Part shown: in pieces, positions 3,030-55,096 of the stretch
How the letters are laid out: the number at the start of each line of letters is the position of its first letter
Position numbering within the stretch: the first letter of the stretch is position 1
Source: Haloterrigena alkaliphila
GTDB taxonomy: Archaea; Halobacteriota; Halobacteria; Halobacteriales; Natrialbaceae
Assembly: GCF_017352155.2 (NCBI RefSeq)
Contig: NZ_CP071462.1
Span: 124,001 to 188,000 of the forward strand
DNA: 64,000 bases
Direction: 5' to 3'
Translations under genes and position numbers: made by a program
The notes under the pieces: generated by a model
The model's database searches: none
Told to the model about the DNA's origin: nothing
Seen by the model: the letters and a program-made list of their open reading frames with translations, nothing else

Positions 3030-5606
3030 TTAGTTCTGGCGGCGGAGTGCCAGCATGGCGGCGGCGAGCATCGCGACGAGGGCGACAGCGATGCCGAAGC
3101 CGGGCGTTCCGTCTTCGTCATCGTCTTCCTCGCCGTTCTCCTCGGTGCCGTTGTCCTCGGTTCCGTTGTCTTCGGTACCGTTATCCTCGGTTCCGTTATC
3201 CTCGGTTCCGTTATCCTCGGTTCCGTTCTCTTCAGTACCGTTCTCCTCGGTACCGTTCTCCTTGTCGTCCTTCTTGTCAGGATCCTCGTCGACGATGACG
3301 CCTTTCGTGGAGTCGGAGGCGTCGTCGCCGAGTTCGGTCACGGAGATCGAACGAATCTCGTCACCAGCGTCGTAGTTGCTGAGGTCGAAGGTGCCGACGA
3401 TCGAACCGTCGTCAGTGACTTCCGTGTTGAAGCCGATGACCTCCGTCGGGAGACGGACGTTGTATCGGACTTCTGTACCAGGTGCGACGTTGGAGTCAGC
3501 GGTGATCTCGGACTCTTCACCGTTGCCGACCTGCAGTCGCTCGTCCTCGTCGAAGTCACCGGTGATCTCGACGCTGCGCTCTTCAACGCTGAAGGTCGCG
3601 TCGGTGCGCTCGTCCTCGTCGACGTAGTCATTGTCCTCGGTCACAGCGAATTCGACGTTCCAGGTCTCGTCAGCGTCGATCGTCGTGTCGCCGTCAGTGA
3701 CGGCAGCGACGTCGACAACGACGTAGAACGTGTCGTTTGCAGCGTCCTCGTGGACGGTTGCGCTGTCACCTTCGATGTCAGAGAGGAGGATCTGCTCCGC
3801 ATCGTTGTAGCGCGGCTCGTGCGTGTTCGTCAGGTTCAGCTCCAGGCCCGTGCCGTCGGCCAGTTCACCGTCGTCGTTGAGGAGGTAGCCGTAGACACCG
3901 CTGGCTTCAACCTCTGCGACGAGCAGGTCACTGTTCGCGACCGTGTCGCTCTCGGAGCTTGCCTCGAGGATGGTCTCGAGGTCGTCATCGTGTGCGAGGT
4001 CGGCGGGTGCGACCGCGGTGGTCACGTCGCCGGTGTTACGCTCGCTGAGGACCAGGAACGAAGCGTCGGTCGCTCGTTCGCGGTCTTCAGTGACGAACGC
4101 TTCGAGCTCGTAGTCTGCGTCGAGCAGGCGAACGCCACTATCGAACGAGGTTTCGCTGGCGACCTCAACCTCGTCGTCTTCGGAGGTGAACGCCTTGTCG
4201 CTGTCCTGACCAGCGTAGTAGGTGTTGAACGTGACGGTCACTTCGCCGTCATCGTCAGTGTCGGTCAGGTTGAGGGTGGCGTCGTAGTTGTTGTCAACCT
4301 CAGAGAGGTTCACGTATGCCGAATCGGTGTCCTCGAGTTCGACCGTGAACTCGACGACGTCACCGATCTCTTGTTCGTACTGGTTCGCGTCGAAGTTCGC
4401 GACCTGTTCTTCTTCCGTGACGGAGAAGCTGTCAGACTCGACGGTGATACCGCTGTCGACGTCCTCAACTTCAACCGTGTAGTCGCCCGGCTTGGGCGCG
4501 GTCAGCTGAGCGTTGTAGATACCGTCGGAGTCGAGCGAACCCGAATCAACGGCGCCGTCGACTTCCTCACCCTCAGAGTCGAGGATGCGGACTTCAACAT
4601 CGCGGTTGATGTCGTCAGCCTCAACAGTGGCCTCGATGGGGTTACCCTGGGCGTACTGGCTACGGTCAGTCTCGACCGTCACACCGAGGTCGTCCAGCTC
4701 GAGCGTGCCTTCGGAATCATCAGAGAAGGTGACGTTGACTGAGCTACCGTCACTGAGGCCGCTGGTATCGAGCGTGCGGACCAGACTGTTTTCACCGAGG
4801 GCACGAGTGACCGTTCGGTCCTCGGTCTCGATGTCGATTTCTTCGTTCGTGGTACCGACGATGGCGATCGTTTCGCCAACGTAGGCCGAATCGTCCGTAC
4901 CCGATTCGAGCGTAGTCGAGGTCGTCTCGATATCGTGCTCGACACCGAGGATCTCTATCGTGGAACCACTGGCGAGTTTCTCAGCAGGGCTGAGCGTAAC
5001 AACGCCATTGGCATCTCCCGAAAGCGTATCGAAGTTAACGGAATCACCGTTACGGTTAGTGATTTCAACCTGATCTGCGTTCAGGTTGGAGAAGTCACCG
5101 TTCTCGTAGACGATCTCCAGCATGTAATCGTCGGTGGATTCGTCAACGACGTAGGAGACGGGACCTTGATCAACTGCGGAAGCGTCATCAACGAGCGACA
5201 GGGTTGCATTATCCCAGCTGTCGGCAGTAGAGTCCGCACCCACAGCGGCTCCAGTCGCATCAGCCAGATAGGCATCATAATCGTCAGCGCCAGTATCGAG
5301 CGTGTCTGCTGTGATCTCGTCATCGAGTTCAATCGTATTGATTTCACCCGTCTCGAGATCATCGACACTGACGTTGCCGATCTCTTCGGACGCGTTTTCA
5401 ATGATCAGGCGATCTGCCTGATCAACATCTGTAATCTCAACATCTACTGAGCTACCAGTTGTAGCTTGATCTGCGAATGTAACGTCATCGGTCGCGGCTG
5501 CCGCCGAGCCCACAAACGCTGCGGACATAGCGACAACAGAAAGTACCATAAGCGCGGCCAGGAACACTGCGCGTCCCTTTTCGCGGATGGTTGATTCGTT
5601 TGTCAT
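3030..5606 (-). CDS. S-layer (major cell surface) glycoprotein, paralogue 2 with PGF-CTERM anchor
   Basis: Complete 858-residue secreted surface glycoprotein. Signal peptide 1-38 (REKGRAVFLAALMVLS, then GSAAAA). The body is acidic, with numerous N-x-S/T sequons. A run of eight NGT sequons in a 5-residue repeat (EDNGT/EENGT) precedes a Glu/Asp stretch. The C-terminus has the tripartite PGF-CTERM signal: PGF at about 835-837, a hydrophobic segment, then RRQN. Known PGF-CTERM proteins are processed by archaeosortase ArtA and lipid-anchored, and Thr/Asn-rich linkers just before the motif are heavily glycosylated. I chose the ATG at 5606 because it starts the signal peptide (MTNESTIREKG); an upstream in-frame ATG at 5684 lies in the leader. 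It has its own promoter and terminator, so it is probably not co-transcribed with paralogue 1. Confidence 0.95.
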   Translation of the reverse strand: MTNESTIREKGRAVFLAALMVLSVVAMSAAFVGSAAAATDDVTFADQATTGSSVDVEITDVDQADRLIIENASEEIGNVSVDDLETGEINTIELDDEITADTLDTGADDYDAYLADATGAAVGADSTADSWDNATLSLVDDASAVDQGPVSYVVDESTDDYMLEIVYENGDFSNLNADQVEITNRNGDSVNFDTLSGDANGVVTLSPAEKLASGSTIEILGVEHDIETTSTTLESGTDDSAYVGETIAIVGTTNEEIDIETEDRTVTRALGENSLVRTLDTSGLSDGSSVNVTFSDDSEGTLELDDLGVTVETDRSQYAQGNPIEATVEADDINRDVEVRILDSEGEEVDGAVDSGSLDSDGIYNAQLTAPKPGDYTVEVEDVDSGITVESDSFSVTEEEQVANFDANQYEQEIGDVVEFTVELEDTDSAYVNLSEVDNNYDATLNLTDTDDDGEVTVTFNTYYAGQDSDKAFTSEDDEVEVASETSFDSGVRLLDADYELEAFVTEDRERATDASFLVLSERNTGDVTTAVAPADLAHDDDLETILEASSESDTVANSDLLVAEVEASGVYGYLLNDDGELADGTGLELNLTNTHEPRYNDAEQILLSDIEGDSATVHEDAANDTFYVVVDVAAVTDGDTTIDADETWNVEFAVTEDNDYVDEDERTDATFSVEERSVEITGDFDEDERLQVGNGEESEITADSNVAPGTEVRYNVRLPTEVIGFNTEVTDDGSIVGTFDLSNYDAGDEIRSISVTELGDDASDSTKGVIVDEDPDKKDDKENGTEENGTEENGTEDNGTEDNGTEDNGTEDNGTEDNGTEENGEEDDDEDGTPGFGIAVALVAMLAAAMLALRRQN
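3131..3261 (-). repeat. 15-bp tandem repeat encoding the N-G-T sequon linker
   Basis: The coding sequence repeats a 15-bp unit (plus-strand form resembles GGTTCCGTTATCCTC) about eight times, giving EDNGT/EENGT. Every unit contributes one N-glycosylation sequon just before the membrane anchor. Neighbouring units differ only at silent or E/D-switching positions, so copy number could change by slippage. It is coding, not CRISPR-like. Confidence 0.85.
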
Positions 5607-5690
5607 TGGTTGTCTTGTTGTTTGGTTTGGTTGGTTGGCGTGCGATGCGACATGGAGTGCGATCAGTGCGGACGTCCGCACCAACTCGCA

Positions 5691-11200: not shown

Positions 11201-12411
11201 TGCGGACTCACCTCGTACACCGTCTCGCCGAGTAGGTGGTAGACGCGATCACCGGCGATCAGCGGCGTACTGCCGAACGGGTCGCTATCGTCGGTGTCGA
11301 CCGAGACGCGAAACCGCTCGTCGCCGGTGTCGGCCTCGAGCGCGAGGAGTCCGTCCGCCCGCGAGGCGTAGACGGTCTCGCCGCCGACGCTGAGCCCGAA
11401 CTCGAGGGCCGAGCGTTCTCGCTGCCACACATCTCTCCCCTCGAGGTCGATTCGATCGATCGATTCGGCGTTCGGTCGCGACCAGTACAGTGCGCCGTTC
11501 GACGCGTCAAGTGCGATCGAGTCGTGATGCGTGCTCCGGTCGGTCGACTCGTCGGGGATGGTCCACCGTCGATTCCCGGAGTCGGTTTCGAGAGCGGTCA
11601 GGTCGCCGTTCGATGCCACGACGGCGACGAAATCGTCGGCGACCGCGACCTGCCCGCGGCTCAGCGACGAGGCGCCGATAGCCGCGTCGCTCTCCCAGCG
11701 TCGAGCGCCGGTTTCGGCCTCGAGGCCGACCAGTCGGCCGTCGTCGTAGTGGGCGCCGACGAGGAGCCCGCTGCGGGCGGCCAGCGGCGTCAGCCGCCCG
11801 GCCTGTCGCCAGCGTTCCAGCCCCGTCTCCGCGTCGAGGGCGAGAAGCCGGTCGCCGCCGTCGACGAGGGCCGACACGGAGACGGTGTTCCCGAACAGGT
11901 GGAGCCCGTCGCTGCTGCTGTTGAGTTCGTAGCGCCAGCGCAGCCGACGGGAGTCGAGGTCGAGCGCGCAGACGTCGGTCTGAAACACGAGATAGACGAC
12001 GCCGTCGCGAACCCGCGGCTCCGTATCGAGCTGCGGGCGGTCGTGCGTCCCAAGCGGCGGGGGCTGTCGGTACGCGTACCGCCAGCGCTCCGCGCCGCTC
12101 CCGACGTCGATCGCCCGGAGCGATCGGTGCGTCGGGACGAGCAGCGTCCCGTCGACCAGTGCGAGCCCCGCGTGTTCATATCGTCGGTGCGTCTCGAGCG
12201 TCCGATCCCAGCCGACCGTTCCGTCCGCGCCTGGACCGGGATCGGCCGTCGTCGCGCTGTTTCTCGAGTCGGCGCGCGGCTGGAGCCACCCGTCTTCGGC
12301 GTCCGGACCCGCGTGGTTCGACGTGCCGATGCGCGGACCGAGGAGACTGGCGCCGAGCAGCGACCCGCCCGTCACGCCGAGCAATCGACGTCGGGTCAGT
12401 GACGGATACAT
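11197..12411 (-). CDS. Tat-exported PQQ-like beta-propeller protein
   Basis: A 404-residue protein with a twin-arginine signal (TRRRLLGVTGGSLLGASLLG, residues 6-25), so it is exported folded, as is common in haloarchaea. The body has repeated propeller blades of the PQQ-binding-like/BamB type, with recurring A-x-D-x-x-(S/T)-G-x-x-x-W/R-W motifs (AIDVGSGAERWRY, ALDAETGLERWRQ, GLEAETGARRWES, ALETDSGNRRWTI, ALEADTGDERFRV). No haem or catalytic motif is visible, so it is more likely a binding or scaffold protein than a quinoprotein dehydrogenase. I chose the ATG at 12411 because it starts the Tat signal. It overlaps the downstream small membrane gene. Confidence 0.85.
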   Translation of the reverse strand: MYPSLTRRRLLGVTGGSLLGASLLGPRIGTSNHAGPDAEDGWLQPRADSRNSATTADPGPGADGTVGWDRTLETHRRYEHAGLALVDGTLLVPTHRSLRAIDVGSGAERWRYAYRQPPPLGTHDRPQLDTEPRVRDGVVYLVFQTDVCALDLDSRRLRWRYELNSSSDGLHLFGNTVSVSALVDGGDRLLALDAETGLERWRQAGRLTPLAARSGLLVGAHYDDGRLVGLEAETGARRWESDAAIGASSLSRGQVAVADDFVAVVASNGDLTALETDSGNRRWTIPDESTDRSTHHDSIALDASNGALYWSRPNAESIDRIDLEGRDVWQRERSALEFGLSVGGETVYASRADGLLALEADTGDERFRVSVDTDDSDPFGSTPLIAGDRVYHLLGETVYEVSPQ

Positions 12412-12655: not shown

Positions 12656-13045
12656 ATGAAGACCACACGGCACGCGACCTACAACCTCAACTACCACATA
12701 GTGTGGTTGCCGAAGTACCGCCAGTCGGTACTCGTCAACGAGGTCGCCAACCGTGTGCGAGACATCCTCCACGAAATCGCCGACGACAAAGGCTTAGAGA
12801 TTATTGACCTGACCGTTCAACCCGACCACATCCACCTGTTCGTCAGTAGTCCACCGAAGCACGCGCCGTCGCTTCTCGCCAACTGGTTCAAGGGTATTTC
12901 CTCGCGGAAATACAACCACCGCTACGCGGACAACGACGGTGAGAAGATTCGATGGGCGAGAGGCTACTACGCAGGAACGGCGGGTCACGTTTCCAGCGAA
13001 ACGGTACAGGACTACATCCAGCGTCACGAGGAGGGCGACCAATGA
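12656..13045 (+). CDS. tnpA: TnpA, Y1 HUH transposase (IS200/IS605)
   Basis: A 129-residue single-strand DNA transposase. It has the HUH metal motif in QPDHIHLF (about 55-62) and the catalytic tyrosine in the C-terminal helix (DYIQRHEE, about Y118). The N-terminal YHIVWLPKYR is typical of the family. Length is normal and no frameshift is seen, so it looks active. The stop overlaps the tnpB start (ATGA at 13042-13045). TnpA excises and inserts a single-stranded circle by recognising the end hairpins. Confidence 0.95.
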   Translation: MKTTRHATYNLNYHIVWLPKYRQSVLVNEVANRVRDILHEIADDKGLEIIDLTVQPDHIHLFVSSPPKHAPSLLANWFKGISSRKYNHRYADNDGEKIRWARGYYAGTAGHVSSETVQDYIQRHEEGDQ

Positions 13046-14280
13046 CCGAACTCACCAAGACGTTGGAACTCAAGCTGGTGGACCCGAACGCGCACAAACG
13101 ACGAAAACTCCGCGAGACGCGGGATACCTACCAGCAGGCCCTTCAGGATGCGTTCGACGCTGGTTGCACCACTCAAACCGAAGCGAACGACATAGTGGTC
13201 AACTACGACCTATCGGGGTACGCGAAGAACGCCCTCAAAAAGTACGTCCCGCAGTTGACGACGACGTACAACGCGGGCGACCTACACGACGACCACCCTG
13301 TTCGGTTCACCAATGAGGGGTTACGCCTCGACCACAATCCCGAGAACGCTATCGAGTGGTACGTCAAAATCCCGCACCACGAGGACTACCACCTCTGGAT
13401 GCCAGCACAGCCGAATCCCGACCAACGGAACTGGTTAGAAGCGTTGAACGTTGGTGACGCGGAGATGGGCGAGAGTCGGCTGTTTCAGCGGGATGAGACG
13501 TGGTATCTGCACGTCACCGCGACCCGCGACGTGGAGGATTGTTCCGAAGCGTCCGAAGATGAACGGACGCCTATCGGAGTGGACATTGGAGAAGCGTCAC
13601 TTGTCACGGTGTGTCACCGCGACGACCACGGTTCTCCGACTCGCCCCGAACTGTGGGCCGACGAGGGTAAAACCGTTCGTCGGCTACGCAAGACCTACTT
13701 CACCGCTACGCGACGGCTTCAAGAACGCGGAAGCGACCGTATCGCCGAATCGTTCGGCGACGACCTGTGGAACCAGATAGACGACGTGTTCCATCGTGTC
13801 ACCCGCGAAGTCGTGGAGTACGCAGAATCCGTTGAGAATCCCGTACTGGTTCTGGAAGACTTGACGTACATTCGGGAGTCGATGGACTACGGCGAGTACA
13901 TGAACCGTCGTCTTCACGGATGGGGGTTCGCCAAACTCCACGCGCAGATACGCTACAAAGCCGTCGAGAAAGGGATTCCCGTCGAGACGGTCAATCCGCG
14001 TAACACGTCGAAGGAGTGCCATGCGTGCGGTGAAGTCGGGTATCGCCCGAAGCAGGCGACGTTCAAATGCACGAACGACGACTGCTGGATGGGCGAGTAC
14101 CAAGCGGATGTGAATGGGGCGATAAACATTGCAGACCGCTACCTCAGCGGAGAGAGTCGTTCCAGAGAACACCCGAACGACGATGACTCGGCTGAGGATG
14201 GGGCGCATTTGACCGCGCCACAAGACAGCCAAGCCGATGTTGAAATCCAGCAGTTGACGCTTGGAACGTATGCGTCTTGA
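13042..14280 (+). CDS. tnpB: TnpB, RNA-guided nuclease of IS200/IS605 element
   Basis: A 412-residue OrfB/TnpB protein with all RuvC catalytic acids present: D181 (GVDIGEASLVTV), E272 (VLVLEDLTYI) and D356 (QADVNGAINIADR). The zinc finger is complete (C326, C329, C343, C348). TnpB proteins are RNA-guided endonucleases that use an omega RNA from the element's right end. The complete active site and zinc finger suggest a working nuclease. The ATG at 13042 overlaps the tnpA stop. The last ~45 residues past the RuvC III motif are low-complexity and variable, and overlap the region where the guide RNA is expected to begin. Confidence 0.95.
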   Translation: MTELTKTLELKLVDPNAHKRRKLRETRDTYQQALQDAFDAGCTTQTEANDIVVNYDLSGYAKNALKKYVPQLTTTYNAGDLHDDHPVRFTNEGLRLDHNPENAIEWYVKIPHHEDYHLWMPAQPNPDQRNWLEALNVGDAEMGESRLFQRDETWYLHVTATRDVEDCSEASEDERTPIGVDIGEASLVTVCHRDDHGSPTRPELWADEGKTVRRLRKTYFTATRRLQERGSDRIAESFGDDLWNQIDDVFHRVTREVVEYAESVENPVLVLEDLTYIRESMDYGEYMNRRLHGWGFAKLHAQIRYKAVEKGIPVETVNPRNTSKECHACGEVGYRPKQATFKCTNDDCWMGEYQADVNGAINIADRYLSGESRSREHPNDDDSAEDGAHLTAPQDSQADVEIQQLTLGTYAS

Positions 14281-20653: not shown

Positions 20654-20770
20654 GGCCGCCGTCGATGAGCCCGTTGTCGCGTCTCGATCGTCGACAGTAC
20701 GGCGGAGAACGGTTCTCCCTCGAGAGCGCTCCGTCCGTCGTGAACCGTACAGACGGCACGATCTGACCAC

Positions 20771-20902
20771 GTGCTGTGGCGCGCGCTGTGCCGTGGTGAA
20801 GCGATCAGCGAACCACGGCACGACGTTGTGCGAGGGATGAGCGAGCCTGCGAGCGAATCGGCTGGGGAGGGTGGGGAAATCACCGTCGCCACGATAGCAG
20901 GA
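20771..20902 (-). repeat. Structured dispersed repeat, copy A1
   Basis: Read on the minus strand it follows the family order: CTGCTATCGTGGC, the core CCAGCCGATTCGCTC, CTCATCCCTCGC, a hairpin, then GCGCGCGCCAC. The hairpin is a perfect 10-bp stem (20788-20797 GTGCCGTGGT with 20812-20821 ACCACGGCAC). The minus-strand loop starts TCG and ends in a pyrimidine run. The first half is more degenerate than in other copies. Confidence 0.85.
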
Positions 20903-20995
20903 CAGTCCTCTTCACTTGTTCCGTCGATCGACGCGTCGGTTCTATTCACACGCGGACTGCACAGTGAACTCGAGAGTGATCCGAGTAAGACGAAG

Positions 20996-21137
20996 CGTCC
21001 TGCTATCGTGGCGGCAGGGAATCGCCACGTCCTCCCCAGCCGATTCGCTCGCTCCCGAGAGTCACTCGCTCATCCCTCGCGCATCGTCCTGCTGCGGTTC
21101 GTTATTCACTCACCGCAGCAGAGCGCGCGCCACCGCA
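20996..21137 (+). repeat. Structured dispersed repeat, copy A2
   Basis: Order: CCTGCTATCGTGGC, a short hairpin CGTGGC/GCCACG, the core CCCCAGCCGATTCGCTC, CACTCGCTCATCCCTCGCGC, a 10-bp hairpin CTGCTGCGGT (21089-21098)/ACCGCAGCAG (21112-21121) with loop TCGTTATTCACTC, then GCGCGCGCCACCGCA. The stem bases differ from those of A1 although pairing is perfect in both. Confidence 0.9.
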
Positions 21138-21311
21138 CGTCGGATGGGCGACCCGCTGTAACAGCGGCGCGACGATATCGTGCGGCAGCCCAGCCGAAAG
21201 CCGGCCCGTCGAGACACCGCTCGAGCCCCGTCCGAGATCGTCCCGCTCGAGGCCGTTCGCACACCGTTGCCGAGCCAACGTATTTCACCACGGAGCGTGT
21301 ATACGAGTACC

Positions 21312-41602: not shown

Positions 41603-41626
41603 ACGCGGACGGAGTCGAACCGCTTT

Positions 41627-41757
41627 CTCCTATCGTGGCAACGGGGAATCGCCACGCCCTCCCCAGCCGATTCGCTCGTTGCACTCGCTCATCCCTCGCG
41701 CGGAAGTATCAGCTGGCCTCGCAGTGCTCGGCCAGCTGACAGCGCACGCCACCGCGT
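41627..41757 (+). repeat. Structured dispersed repeat, copy B1
   Basis: Order: TCCTATCGTGGC, short hairpin CGTGGC/GCCACG, core CCCCAGCCGATTCGCTC, CACTCGCTCATCCCTCGCGC, 10-bp hairpin TCAGCTGGCC (41709-41718)/GGCCAGCTGA (41730-41739) with loop TCGCAGTGCTC, then AGCGCACGCCACCGCG. The stem is unlike those of the A copies in sequence but pairs perfectly. Confidence 0.9.
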
Positions 41758-41768
41758 GGTACGTGTCC

Positions 41769-41906
41769 GCCGCGCGGTGGCGCGCGCTGGTCCGCGGTGA
41801 GCGACCAGCGAGCCGCGGGGCGAAATTGTGCGAGGGATGAGCGAACGACCGAAGGGAGTGAGTGAATCGGCTGGGGAGGACGAGGCAGTTCCCCGTTGCC
41901 ACGATA
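41769..41906 (-). repeat. Structured dispersed repeat, copy B2
   Basis: Minus-strand copy with a longer spacer after the core (includes CTCACTCCCTTCGGTCG). The hairpin is CCGCGG (41792-41797)/CCGCGG (41813-41818), extended by G-U pairs; the minus-strand loop region contains CTCGCTGGTCGCTC. It ends with the family's GCGCGCGCCACCG. Confidence 0.85.
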
Positions 41907-42028
41907 CGTCGAACACGCTGTGCAAACTGCGTCTCTCTCTCCGAATGAAGAGGCCATCACCGAACGACTGGCTTCGGAACGTCTACCGCGTGAACAGCAC
42001 ACCTGAGATCAACCGCCCGACACGCCGA

Positions 42029-47457: not shown

Positions 47458-47523
47458 GTTCGAATCGGTTCGATTCGGTATCGCTTTTGGACTCGAATTC
47501 TTTCCCCTCCCTGACCATCCGGC

Positions 47524-47656
47524 GTGCGGTGGCGTGCGCCGGGCCGCAGTGAGTCATCGACGAACTGCGGCACGAACCCGCGCGAGGGATGAGCGAGTGC
47601 AACGAGCGAATCGGCTGGGGAGGGCGTGGCGATTCCCCGTTGCCACGATCGCAGGA
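47524..47656 (-). repeat. Structured dispersed repeat, copy C1
   Basis: Minus-strand copy in family order, with the core CCAGCCGATTCGCTC and CACTCGCTCATCCCTCGCGC. The 8-bp hairpin is GCCGCAGT (47543-47550)/ACTGCGGC (47564-47571); its minus-strand loop is TCGTCGATGACTC, nearly identical to that of copy D. It ends GCACGCCACCGCAC. Confidence 0.9.
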
Positions 47657-47762
47657 CGGTGCTCATTGTCCCTCACTTCACTCGTGACCGCGGTTCTATC
47701 CGTACCGTCGAGTCGTGTTCCATCAACACCGATCGCGAACAACAGTGGAAACGTCCGAAAGT

Positions 47763-47905
47763 GTTCTGCTCATTCTGGCGGTCAGGGATTGCCACGCCCT
47801 CCCCAGCCGATTCGCTCGTTCACTCCGCTCACTCACTCATCCCTCGCGCAGTAACATCGATCGGTCCTCGAGTCCTCGGACCGATCGACAGCGCGCGCCA
47901 CCGCA
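47763..47905 (+). repeat. Structured dispersed repeat, copy C2
   Basis: Family order with GTTCTGCTCAT in place of the usual CTATCGTGG start, a short hairpin TGGC/GCCA, the core, CTCATCCCTCGCGC and a perfect 11-bp hairpin TCGATCGGTCC (47857-47867)/GGACCGATCGA (47878-47888) with loop TCGAGTCCTC, then AGCGCGCGCCACCGCA. Confidence 0.9.
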
Positions 47906-48066
47906 CGCCGGCTGGATAGTTCAGCGTCCGACGTCCTCGTCGAAATCGAATAGACTGGCGATAGTGCTCGAGAACCAGACGAGAACTAAGTGACACACCG
48001 AACCGGCGTGCCAACCGAACGAAAACGGAGAACGGCTCGAAAAACGACGAACTGAACGACCCGGCG

Positions 48067-52985: not shown

Positions 52986-53297
52986 CACCCGTTGTATGCG
53001 GCTGAGGAATAAAAGAAGCGTGTTCTATTATCAATGATAATCCATCGGAGAATCCCGACGGCGATCTCACAGGTATCCACAATGACGTTTTCGGGTGGTA
53101 CAGTAGCGAACAACGGTGAACGTCGACGGATAGCGACGAACGGAAACGACCGCTGTCGATCAGTGGTGCAGTACCGATCGGTGGCCGGCACCGACCGGAG
53201 ACGAAACGCGGAACGAACGATCGATACGACACGAGACGACACAAGACAGCTCGAGACAATTCGAGACGACGCGGAGACCCGCGATCGAATCGACCCG
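52986..53297. other. Non-coding stretch between nhaC and a small membrane gene
   Basis: About 310 bases. The nhaC side holds the TATA box and operator-like palindrome described separately. From 53045 onward I see no convincing feature; plus-strand frames are Arg/Asp-rich noise. Several CGATACGACACGAGACGAC-type short runs near 53220-53270 give it a repetitive look but no clear unit. Confidence 0.5.
53008..53041 (-). promoter_or_regulatory. TATA box and operator-like palindrome of the third nhaC gene
   Basis: The minus strand has CTTTTATT (53008-53015), about 23 nt ahead of the ATG at 52985, giving a leaderless transcript. Eleven bases further upstream is a perfect AT-rich inverted repeat ATTATCA-A-TGATAAT (53027-53041), next to where TFB binds. 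In this GC-rich genome it stands out as a likely regulator site. Confidence 0.55.
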
Positions 53298-53486
53298 TCA
53301 GCGGCGATCGTCAGGCGACTCCTCGCCGTCGGCGCCCTCGAGTTCCTCGAGATACCGCTCGGCGTCGTACTGGATGTACGCCGAGACGACCGCGAGGACG
53401 GCGACGACGAACAGCGGGACGCCGACGAGCAGAACGAGCAGCCCGATCGCGATGAGGAATTCGCTGCTCACGAGCGCCAGAGCCAT
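53298..53486 (-). CDS. Small single-span membrane protein
   Basis: A 62-residue protein with one long hydrophobic stretch (about 10-40: FLIAIGLLVLLVGVPLFVVA) and an acidic C-terminus (DAERYLEELEGADGEESPDD). ATG 53486. Unknown family. Repeat copy D lies about 120 nt upstream. Confidence 0.6.
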   Translation of the reverse strand: MALALVSSEFLIAIGLLVLLVGVPLFVVAVLAVVSAYIQYDAERYLEELEGADGEESPDDRR

Positions 53487-53794
53487 ACCGATCGGAGACG
53501 TTCGAGCGATTTAGGGACTCGGGTTCGTCGTACCACGGCTCGTTGAGTGATCGTTGAGCGATCGGCGAGTGGTGTGCTCGAGGGAGAGAGTGAACTGAAA
53601 GAAGCGTTCTGCTATCGTGGCAACAGGGAATCACCACGCCCTCCCCAGCCGATTCGCTCACATACGTTCGCTCATCCCTCGCACGAGTTCAGACTGCGGT
53701 TCGTCAGGGACTCACCGCAGTCCAGCGTGCGCCACTGCGCCGGACAGTCGGCCAGAGAATGGTAACGCCTCAGCCTCGAACACGAGTTCCGTAC
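53487..53794. other. Non-coding region holding a single structured repeat
   Basis: About 310 bases between the small membrane gene and the nre stop, with repeat copy D at 53605-53737. This is the only unpaired copy in the window. No gene is visible in the rest. Confidence 0.7.
53605..53737 (+). repeat. Structured dispersed repeat, copy D
   Basis: Order: CGTTCTGCTATCGTGGC, short hairpin CGTGG/CCACG, core CCCCAGCCGATTCGCTC, TTCGCTCATCCCTCGC, hairpin GACTGCGGT (53692-53700)/ACCGCAGTC (53714-53722) with loop TCGTCAGGGACTC, then AGCGTGCGCCACTGCG. The upstream flank (AGTGAACTGAAAGAAGCG) resembles that of copy A2. Confidence 0.9.
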
Positions 53795-55096
53795 CTAGTC
53801 TCGAGCAGAGAACGCGCCGAGATTCGACTGCAGTCCCGCTGCGAGTTCGGACTTCCGGCGGAGGCGAGCGTGGGAGACCGGCAACTGCGTCGCGACCTCC
53901 GCGACCGCCTGGTGGAAGGTCTCGGACTCGCCGTACTCCCCCTCGAAGGCGTTGCGCACGCTCTCGCGGACCTGCCAGACGCCGACGGGCGCCCAGTAGT
54001 CGTCGCTCACCTCGCGGAGGACGAGGCACTTCGCCTGTCGGCCGATCGACTCGAGGTGCTCGAGGACGGCCAGTCGGGCGGCGTAGTAGGCCCCGGCGGT
54101 CTCCTCGACGTAACTCGAGCGCCCTTCGAACCCCTCGCTGGCGCTGGCCATCCAGGTGTTCCCCTCCGGATCGGGGTTCCAGATGCTGCCGGGCGCTTTC
54201 ATCTCGACGAGTTCGAACTCCCAGTTGCCCGGCGCGAGGACGACCCAGTAGCGGTTGCCCATGTACTCGTTGGCCCAGACCTGCACCTCGTCGATGCTGG
54301 GCGCGTTGCGGATGCGCCCGCGGAGGAACTGACCGACCGTGTCGTCGACGGCGGTGATCGACCACCGCGTCGGGACGAGGCGGCGCTGGTCGGTCTCGCC
54401 GAGCGCGCCCGCCGAGAGGATCGAGTTGATGTCGTAGACGTCGAACCCGCGCCGGTAGAGGTAGGTCATCGCCCCCTGTGCCTGCCAGTCGTCGTCCTCG
54501 AGGGTCTTCTTGACTGGTTTCGGAACGTAGGGGTTCTCCCGTAGTTCCGCGTTGCGGGCGTTGGCTCGTGGCCCGCGCGGGGTCGCGACGTCGGTCCCGG
54601 TGTCGAGGCCAAGGTCGGGCGTATCGTCGAGGCCGATCTCGAGGTCGACCGGCCGGCCCGCGATGGCGACCTCGCGCTGGACGCCCACGAACCCGTCCCA
54701 GGTGTCGTGGACCGAGGGTGCGAGTCGGCTCGCGATGCTCGGCGAATCGACGTTCGCGCGCTTGTTGGAGTTCAGCAGCCCCGTTCGGCGCTGGAGGACG
54801 TCCGGGATGTCGTACCCCTGTTGGTACCAGTTCCCGTCGGTGACGTACTCCTCGGCGGCGTCCTCGTCCCCGACCGGCGAGAGCACGCCCACGGGGATGT
54901 CGGGGTAGTTCGACCGCCCGACGAAGATCGAGGGGGCCGTCGATCCGACGAGGGAGTCACCCGACAGCGCCTGCTCGAAGTTCCGCTCGAACTCCTCGAG
55001 GTGGTCCGTGATCGCGTAGGACTTCTCCTTCGCGAGGCGCCGTCGCTCGGCCTCCTCGTCGGGCTCTAACTCCTCGATGTAGTCGTCGAGGCGCAT
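53795..55096 (-). CDS. nreA: Nre family DNA repair protein
   Basis: A 433-residue archaeal repair protein of the Nre family, which acts with PCNA in mitomycin C tolerance. The body matches the family through SIFVGRSNYPDIPVGVLSPV (57-76), then NRYWVVLAPGNWEFELVEMK. The C-terminus ends with a PIP-like motif QSNLGAFSARD (Q-x2-L-x2-F), which in characterised haloarchaeal Nre proteins binds PCNA. The N-terminal zinc-ribbon seen in some Nre types is absent. No adjacent partner. Confidence 0.9.
   Translation of the reverse strand: MRLDDYIEELEPDEEAERRRLAKEKSYAITDHLEEFERNFEQALSGDSLVGSTAPSIFVGRSNYPDIPVGVLSPVGDEDAAEEYVTDGNWYQQGYDIPDVLQRRTGLLNSNKRANVDSPSIASRLAPSVHDTWDGFVGVQREVAIAGRPVDLEIGLDDTPDLGLDTGTDVATPRGPRANARNAELRENPYVPKPVKKTLEDDDWQAQGAMTYLYRRGFDVYDINSILSAGALGETDQRRLVPTRWSITAVDDTVGQFLRGRIRNAPSIDEVQVWANEYMGNRYWVVLAPGNWEFELVEMKAPGSIWNPDPEGNTWMASASEGFEGRSSYVEETAGAYYAARLAVLEHLESIGRQAKCLVLREVSDDYWAPVGVWQVRESVRNAFEGEYGESETFHQAVAEVATQLPVSHARLRRKSELAAGLQSNLGAFSARD

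Follow-up and report, generated by a model that had tools for sequence, protein, structure and literature searches.

A dispersed intergenic repeat of Haloterrigena alkaliphila with a predicted strand-specific RNA fold and the single unit as its basic element

A repeat unit of about 150 bp in Haloterrigena alkaliphila is, with high confidence, a dispersed folded-RNA repeat whose basic element is the single unit, inverted pairs of units being secondary. Seven such units lie in the stretch of 64,000 nucleotides that we analysed (the window), as the pairs A, B and C and the single unit D. Read head to tail, the unit consists of GTNCTGCTATCGTGGCAACRGGGAATCGCCACGCCCTCCCCAGCCGATTCGCTC...CGCTCATCCCTCGCGC, a variable hairpin and AGCGCGCGCCACCGCACG. 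The initial annotation had counted seven copies with six of them in inverted pairs, and its number, orientations, coordinates and spacers were all correct; the interval 20771-21137, which it offered for the pairs, does hold a real pair but spans pair A only.

The unit coordinates below were taken from covariance model (CM) R1 and are given on the RNA strand (tail to head).
20766..20907, + strand: RNA unit A1, left arm of pair A (CM R1 127.4 bits; tail 20766, head 20907; C1:144766-144907)
20908..20992, no strand: spacer of pair A, its left part being the 3' extension of A1 (CTTCACTT...TCGACGCGTCGGTTCTATTCACAC)
20993..21143, - strand: RNA unit A2, right arm of pair A (CM R1 161.3 bits, the top-scoring copy of the genome)
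41620..41762, - strand: RNA unit B1 of pair B (CM R1 125.7 bits)
41767..41918, + strand: RNA unit B2 of pair B (CM R1 139.6 bits)
47519..47661, + strand: RNA unit C1, left arm of pair C (CM R1 142.7 bits)
47662..47758, no strand: spacer of pair C, ~90% identical to the spacer of the pair 1448283/1448532
47759..47911, - strand: RNA unit C2, right arm of pair C (CM R1 118.7 bits; a close copy of the unit at C1:1448532)
53602..53745, - strand: single RNA unit D (CM R1 143.9 bits)

Pairs A and C have their heads inward, with arms 85-93 nt and 97-107 nt apart, respectively. Pair B has its tails inward across a gap of 4-12 nt; only one further close divergent pair occurs in the genome. Unit D is flanked by the convergent ORFs 53034-53546 (+) and 53795-55096 (-).

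When the structure was drawn by hand on the head-to-tail strand of 34 BLAST-selected copies, it contained 737 Watson-Crick cells, along with 66 A·C and 3 G·U. An A·C cell reads as G·U on the opposite strand, so it is the tail-to-head strand that preserves the fold, and for this strand RNAalifold yielded an almost complete fold. Judged from these comparisons, the tail-to-head strand is predicted to encode a self-contained folded RNA domain with the following helices.
P1: closing stem, joining both ends of the unit
P2: inner stem, with G·U in 30 of 167 cells
P3: long hairpin with all four Watson-Crick pairs in its stem, capped by tandem G·A steps and GNRA-like loops
P4: hairpin of two-pair steps, with tandem G·A between the steps
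P5: 3' stem

In the same 34 copies 93% of the cells were paired, and 143 cells were doubly changed as compared with 45 in column shuffles, none of 500 shuffles reaching the observed number. Pairing dropped to 26-44% in controls with slid partners. The corresponding numbers of doubly changed cells across genera were 459 and 129, in an alignment fitted to the CM. The ratio of G·U to A·C in helices P2-P4 was 88:3. Unpaired columns were without strand bias, C>T (5.9%) and G>A (5.0%) being nearly equal, so that the G·U excess is not explained by a transcription-linked mutation bias. Thus, the repeat displays both compensatory changes and strand-specific G·U tolerance, as is required of a structured RNA.

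Comparison of the copies has shown the freely covarying 10-bp hairpin stem, the tandem-G·A hairpin, the inner stem and the strand assignment of the predicted fold, whereas the putative closing stem P1 and 3' stem are supported but less firm. Within this genome P1 was weak (G·U:A·C 7:11); across genera its variation was compatible with pairing, in a CM-fitted alignment that is biased towards the stem. The 3' stem may be as drawn or, alternatively, form a pseudoknot with GUGGC/GCCAC (118-123/134-139 with 126-131/143-148), which fits 91-94% of cells with zero double changes, and either form is less firm than the other helices. A subset of units was 190-215 nt long owing to an insertion of 50-60 nt in the P4 loop region, which has perfect hairpins of its own, e.g. 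AAAGACGCGAAGCGTCTTT in the copy C1:655093-655301. Some ten units had an extra conserved block 5' of the tail, CAGTAtnGGCTGAGAAC...GGCTGAGRAACCGG (e.g. C1:330676, 814388, 10448 and 3472776), so that these copies are longer than the core.

The fold could matter as single-stranded DNA, during lagging-strand synthesis or as the substrate of a DNA endonuclease, instead of as RNA. In DNA, too, tandem G·A steps and loops of the GCGAAGC-like kind are very stable, and DNA hairpins likewise tolerate G·T better than A·C. However, a multi-branched domain of ~150 nt in which G·U pairs are numerous and loops are GNRA-like is more typical of RNA, and a dedicated nuclease gene was not found; we regard the DNA explanation as unlikely and keep to a folded RNA. 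Rfam gave no family above the gathering threshold for window positions 19000-55000, or for 20700-21200 with lax filters, the best hits being sub-threshold chance matches. A likeness to the hammerhead, box C/D or group II domain V was considered and dropped because the core letters were missing.

The covariance model gave at least 147 matches on the genome, a minimum because the scored candidates numbered 150; all of them lay on contig C1, of 3.82 Mb. The other two contigs had zero units, for which the probability under even scatter is near 1e-7. As many as 63 of the 147 units lay less than 1 kb from another unit, where about 5.5 gaps below 1 kb would be expected at random. Among close pairs (≤300 nt), 23 were convergent (heads inward) and 2 divergent in this genome. 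The congeners had 13 convergent and no divergent close pairs among the 40 loci fetched, and the named genomes had 7 convergent close pairs, all in Natrialbaceae-type genera, and 3 divergent ones, outside Natrialbaceae. The view that three pairs in the window are not a matter of chance was thus borne out by a large excess of close pairs with one dominant geometry. About 60% of the genomic copies were nevertheless alone (90 single units by a stricter count). Hence, of the outcome named beforehand as speaking against pairing, i.e. mostly unpaired copies in random orientation, the first half was found and the second was not: pairs are enriched and non-randomly oriented, and singles are in the majority.

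The proposal that pairing is part of the unit was for the most part not supported, as the single copies were equally well preserved. Canonical pairs made up 95% in both single and paired units, the mutual identity of singles was 0.715 as against 0.660 for paired units, and the CM scores of singles were no lower. The two arms of one pair were 66% alike, which is the same as for random units. Pairs contain whole units as inverted arms, and singles have no terminal inverted repeats. The words CGGTTCTAT and CACTT are indeed common to the A and C spacers; they belong, however, to a 3' extension that follows single units (18 cases) as well as paired ones (4 cases). A reading of the pair as a composite transposon was rejected, since long-spacer pairs hold ordinary genes and no transposase.

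Comparison of the spacers, as the initial annotation had recommended, showed them to be mostly unrelated, with the exception that the spacer of pair C matches that of the pair 1448283/1448532. The spacer and right unit of these two pairs are 90-97% alike; the homology goes no further than the right tail, and in the left arm the hairpin is wholly different. Because of this match it appears that a whole pair can be copied at once. At the latter site (C1:1448283-1448684) the left-arm hairpin differs from that of pair C as if swapped by recombination, and one congener has a single unit there.

These observations bear on the possibility that the inverted doublet is a REPIN-like mobile unit, moved by a hairpin-DNA transposase, with the singles as its decaying remnants. 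Over-represented inverted doublets of a single geometry are a feature shared with REPINs, and the copying of pair C together with its spacer and the presence or absence of pair A between species would agree with a mobile doublet. However, REPIN doublets are better conserved than singlets (PMC3116915), which is the reverse of the pattern seen here, as the singles are not decayed and equal or exceed the doublets in preservation. The mostly unrelated spacers also argue against it. A RAYT or Y1 transposase flanked by the repeat was absent: the genome has two Y1 loci (C1:136677 and C2:228704-229062), neither adjoining a unit, the unit nearest the former being ~7.7 kb away and contig C2 having none. 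We consider this explanation quite improbable and continue with the single unit as the element.

An origin as a transposase-free IS200/IS605-type relic (PATE), or as the guide-RNA end of a TnpB element, appears most improbable. PATEs with near-terminal palindromes are common in Haloquadratum (PMC3119063), but the unit length, strong covariation and convergent pairing observed here are foreign to them. Judged by position only, no unit coincided with or adjoined a Y1 locus or any of the 11 places with a TnpB domain, the nearest being kilobases off, and we rejected the IS605/TnpB origin on this basis. The window itself contains an IS605-type element with the only Y1 locus of the chromosome (Y1 domain 12677-13024; TnpB zinc-ribbon 13927-14130; ORFs ~12656-13045 and 12952-14280) and an imperfect palindrome upstream of it (12030-12121). 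Elsewhere in the window, two equally oriented stretches of ~1.4 kb (289-1688 and 3289-4694) share 85% identity, a shorter pair (2553-2705 and 5491-5640; 82%) suggests the duplication of a gene set, and a short tandem repeat array with copies ~85-89% alike (3133-3262) lies beside the duplicated stretch.

With gene calls made by our own ORF scoring and not taken from annotation, the units were found to sit in intergenic gaps, and convergent gaps were used at about twice the expectation. Convergent genes bordered 44 of 101 unit-bearing gaps and 29 of 150 background gaps in this genome (p=6e-5), and 41 of 100 and 49 of 260, respectively, in other genomes (p=4e-5). There was no clear sense bias in same-direction gaps (18 sense vs 14 antisense singles here; 27 vs 21 in other genomes). 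As a simple 3'-UTR or terminator role would predict such a bias, its absence counts against it, and a simple sense-oriented 3'-UTR element was rejected. The 20 nt after the head were rich in pyrimidines (T+C ~0.65 vs ~0.52). Haloarchaeal terminators consist chiefly of T stretches, however, and T runs 3' of the head were rare, occurring in 14 of 116 copies. In Haloferax volcanii, hairpins close to 3' ends can terminate transcription (PMC7237163). We suggest only tentatively that the unit might act at the 3' end of transcripts.

The near-random orientation to neighbours in same-direction gaps and the discreteness of the RNA domain would also suit a multigene family in which each small RNA acts in trans and is transcribed independently from its own promoter. 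This is very unlikely, since a conserved promoter-like block is absent upstream of the tail, save for a short CCGG-type motif, and the number of copies among relatives ranges from 0 to ~150.

Matches were obtained in 98 of 194 genomes and 39 of 65 genera of a class sample, and the fact that 12 of 40 sampled genomes of the family had none indicates that the repeat has no essential role. The exact core pattern occurred at no fewer than 120 places in GTDB genomes, and every match listed was in Halobacteria. Two plasmids carry units; there was no match in IMG/VR contigs and phage collections.

The empty sites that the initial annotation had proposed to look for in relatives do exist: pair A is missing at the same position in four congeners, where the gap is 28-84 bp as compared with ~621 bp here. 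The empty sites are ~84% identical to the occupied one and are too diverged to reveal a target-site duplication. About 24 of 40 units fetched from three congeners share their gap with a unit here, including the convergent pairs at 2897713, 950628, 791856 and 641937. In five clearly orthologous units, 8 double changes were compensatory, 18 single changes were tolerated and 9 pairs were broken. A convergent pair at site 271659 is common to this genome and one of a different genus that has three units in all; the core and hairpin of the right arm are almost unchanged, the left arm is without hairpin and the flanks have diverged (full-length right arm 0.81 vs 0.47 for the intergenic flank, by automatic alignment). 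Many syntenic units were no more similar than random units, so that replacement, re-insertion or conversion looks the same as evolution in place.

Taken together, we think it likely that the repeat is a dispersed, structure-constrained RNA element that spreads, is under selection in place and is either tolerated at the 3' ends of transcripts or perhaps of use there. Copies would spread selfishly and survive mainly where they are harmless, i.e. in gaps between genes and above all in convergent ones. The fold probably stays under selection in place, perhaps because it would give read-through transcripts a stable structure at the 3' end, with a pyrimidine-rich stretch after it. A convergent pair could then serve one transcript from each side.

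No description of the repeat was found in the open-access literature. It is possible, though we put it forward with reservation, that it represents an undescribed archaeal RNA class: a selfish-like repeat kept functional copy by copy, with a multi-branched RNA of ~150 nt at ~150 sites in one chromosome, facing pairs that act as two-way 3'-end or insulation elements, and a stem sequence that is free as long as pairing holds. Repeats with constraint at the RNA level (REP, ERIC, BOX) are well studied in bacteria but hardly in archaea. The family offers hundreds of natural variants with clean covariation, and its fold, strand and function are directly testable in culturable haloarchaea. Should the 3'-end role be true, it would help to explain how convergent transcripts are kept separate in the compact archaeal genomes of some lineages; if false, the repeat is a widespread selfish archaeal RNA element.

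Like REP, BIME and REPIN sequences, the units are high-copy intergenic hairpin repeats with close inverted pairs, patchy copy number and a possible role at transcript ends. They differ in length and structure, a fold of several covarying helices over ~150 nt taking the place of a 20-40 nt palindrome, and also in lacking a linked RAYT-type transposase, in having singles as intact as doublets and in their haloarchaeal host. The PATEs, MITEs and SMRs of Haloquadratum walsbyi are similarly small, transposase-free and scattered in haloarchaeal chromosomes, whereas the present repeat has no IS605 link and no near-identical copies, shows strong compensatory evolution of an RNA fold and occurs in many genera. 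ERIC, BOX and RUP are bacterial repeats of ~100-150 bp that are intergenic and fold once transcribed; they resemble the unit in size, position and folding on transcription, but their sequence and hosts are unrelated, and the constraint here is strand-specific, as seen from the G·U/A·C asymmetry. The hairpin termination sites of Haloferax volcanii are likewise RNA structures close to 3' ends in a haloarchaeon, but they are simple hairpins, unlike this large dispersed repeat with its putative role in termination. We would class the repeat among the high-copy intergenic repeats, from whose other members it stands apart by an RNA fold that is far larger and more strongly supported.
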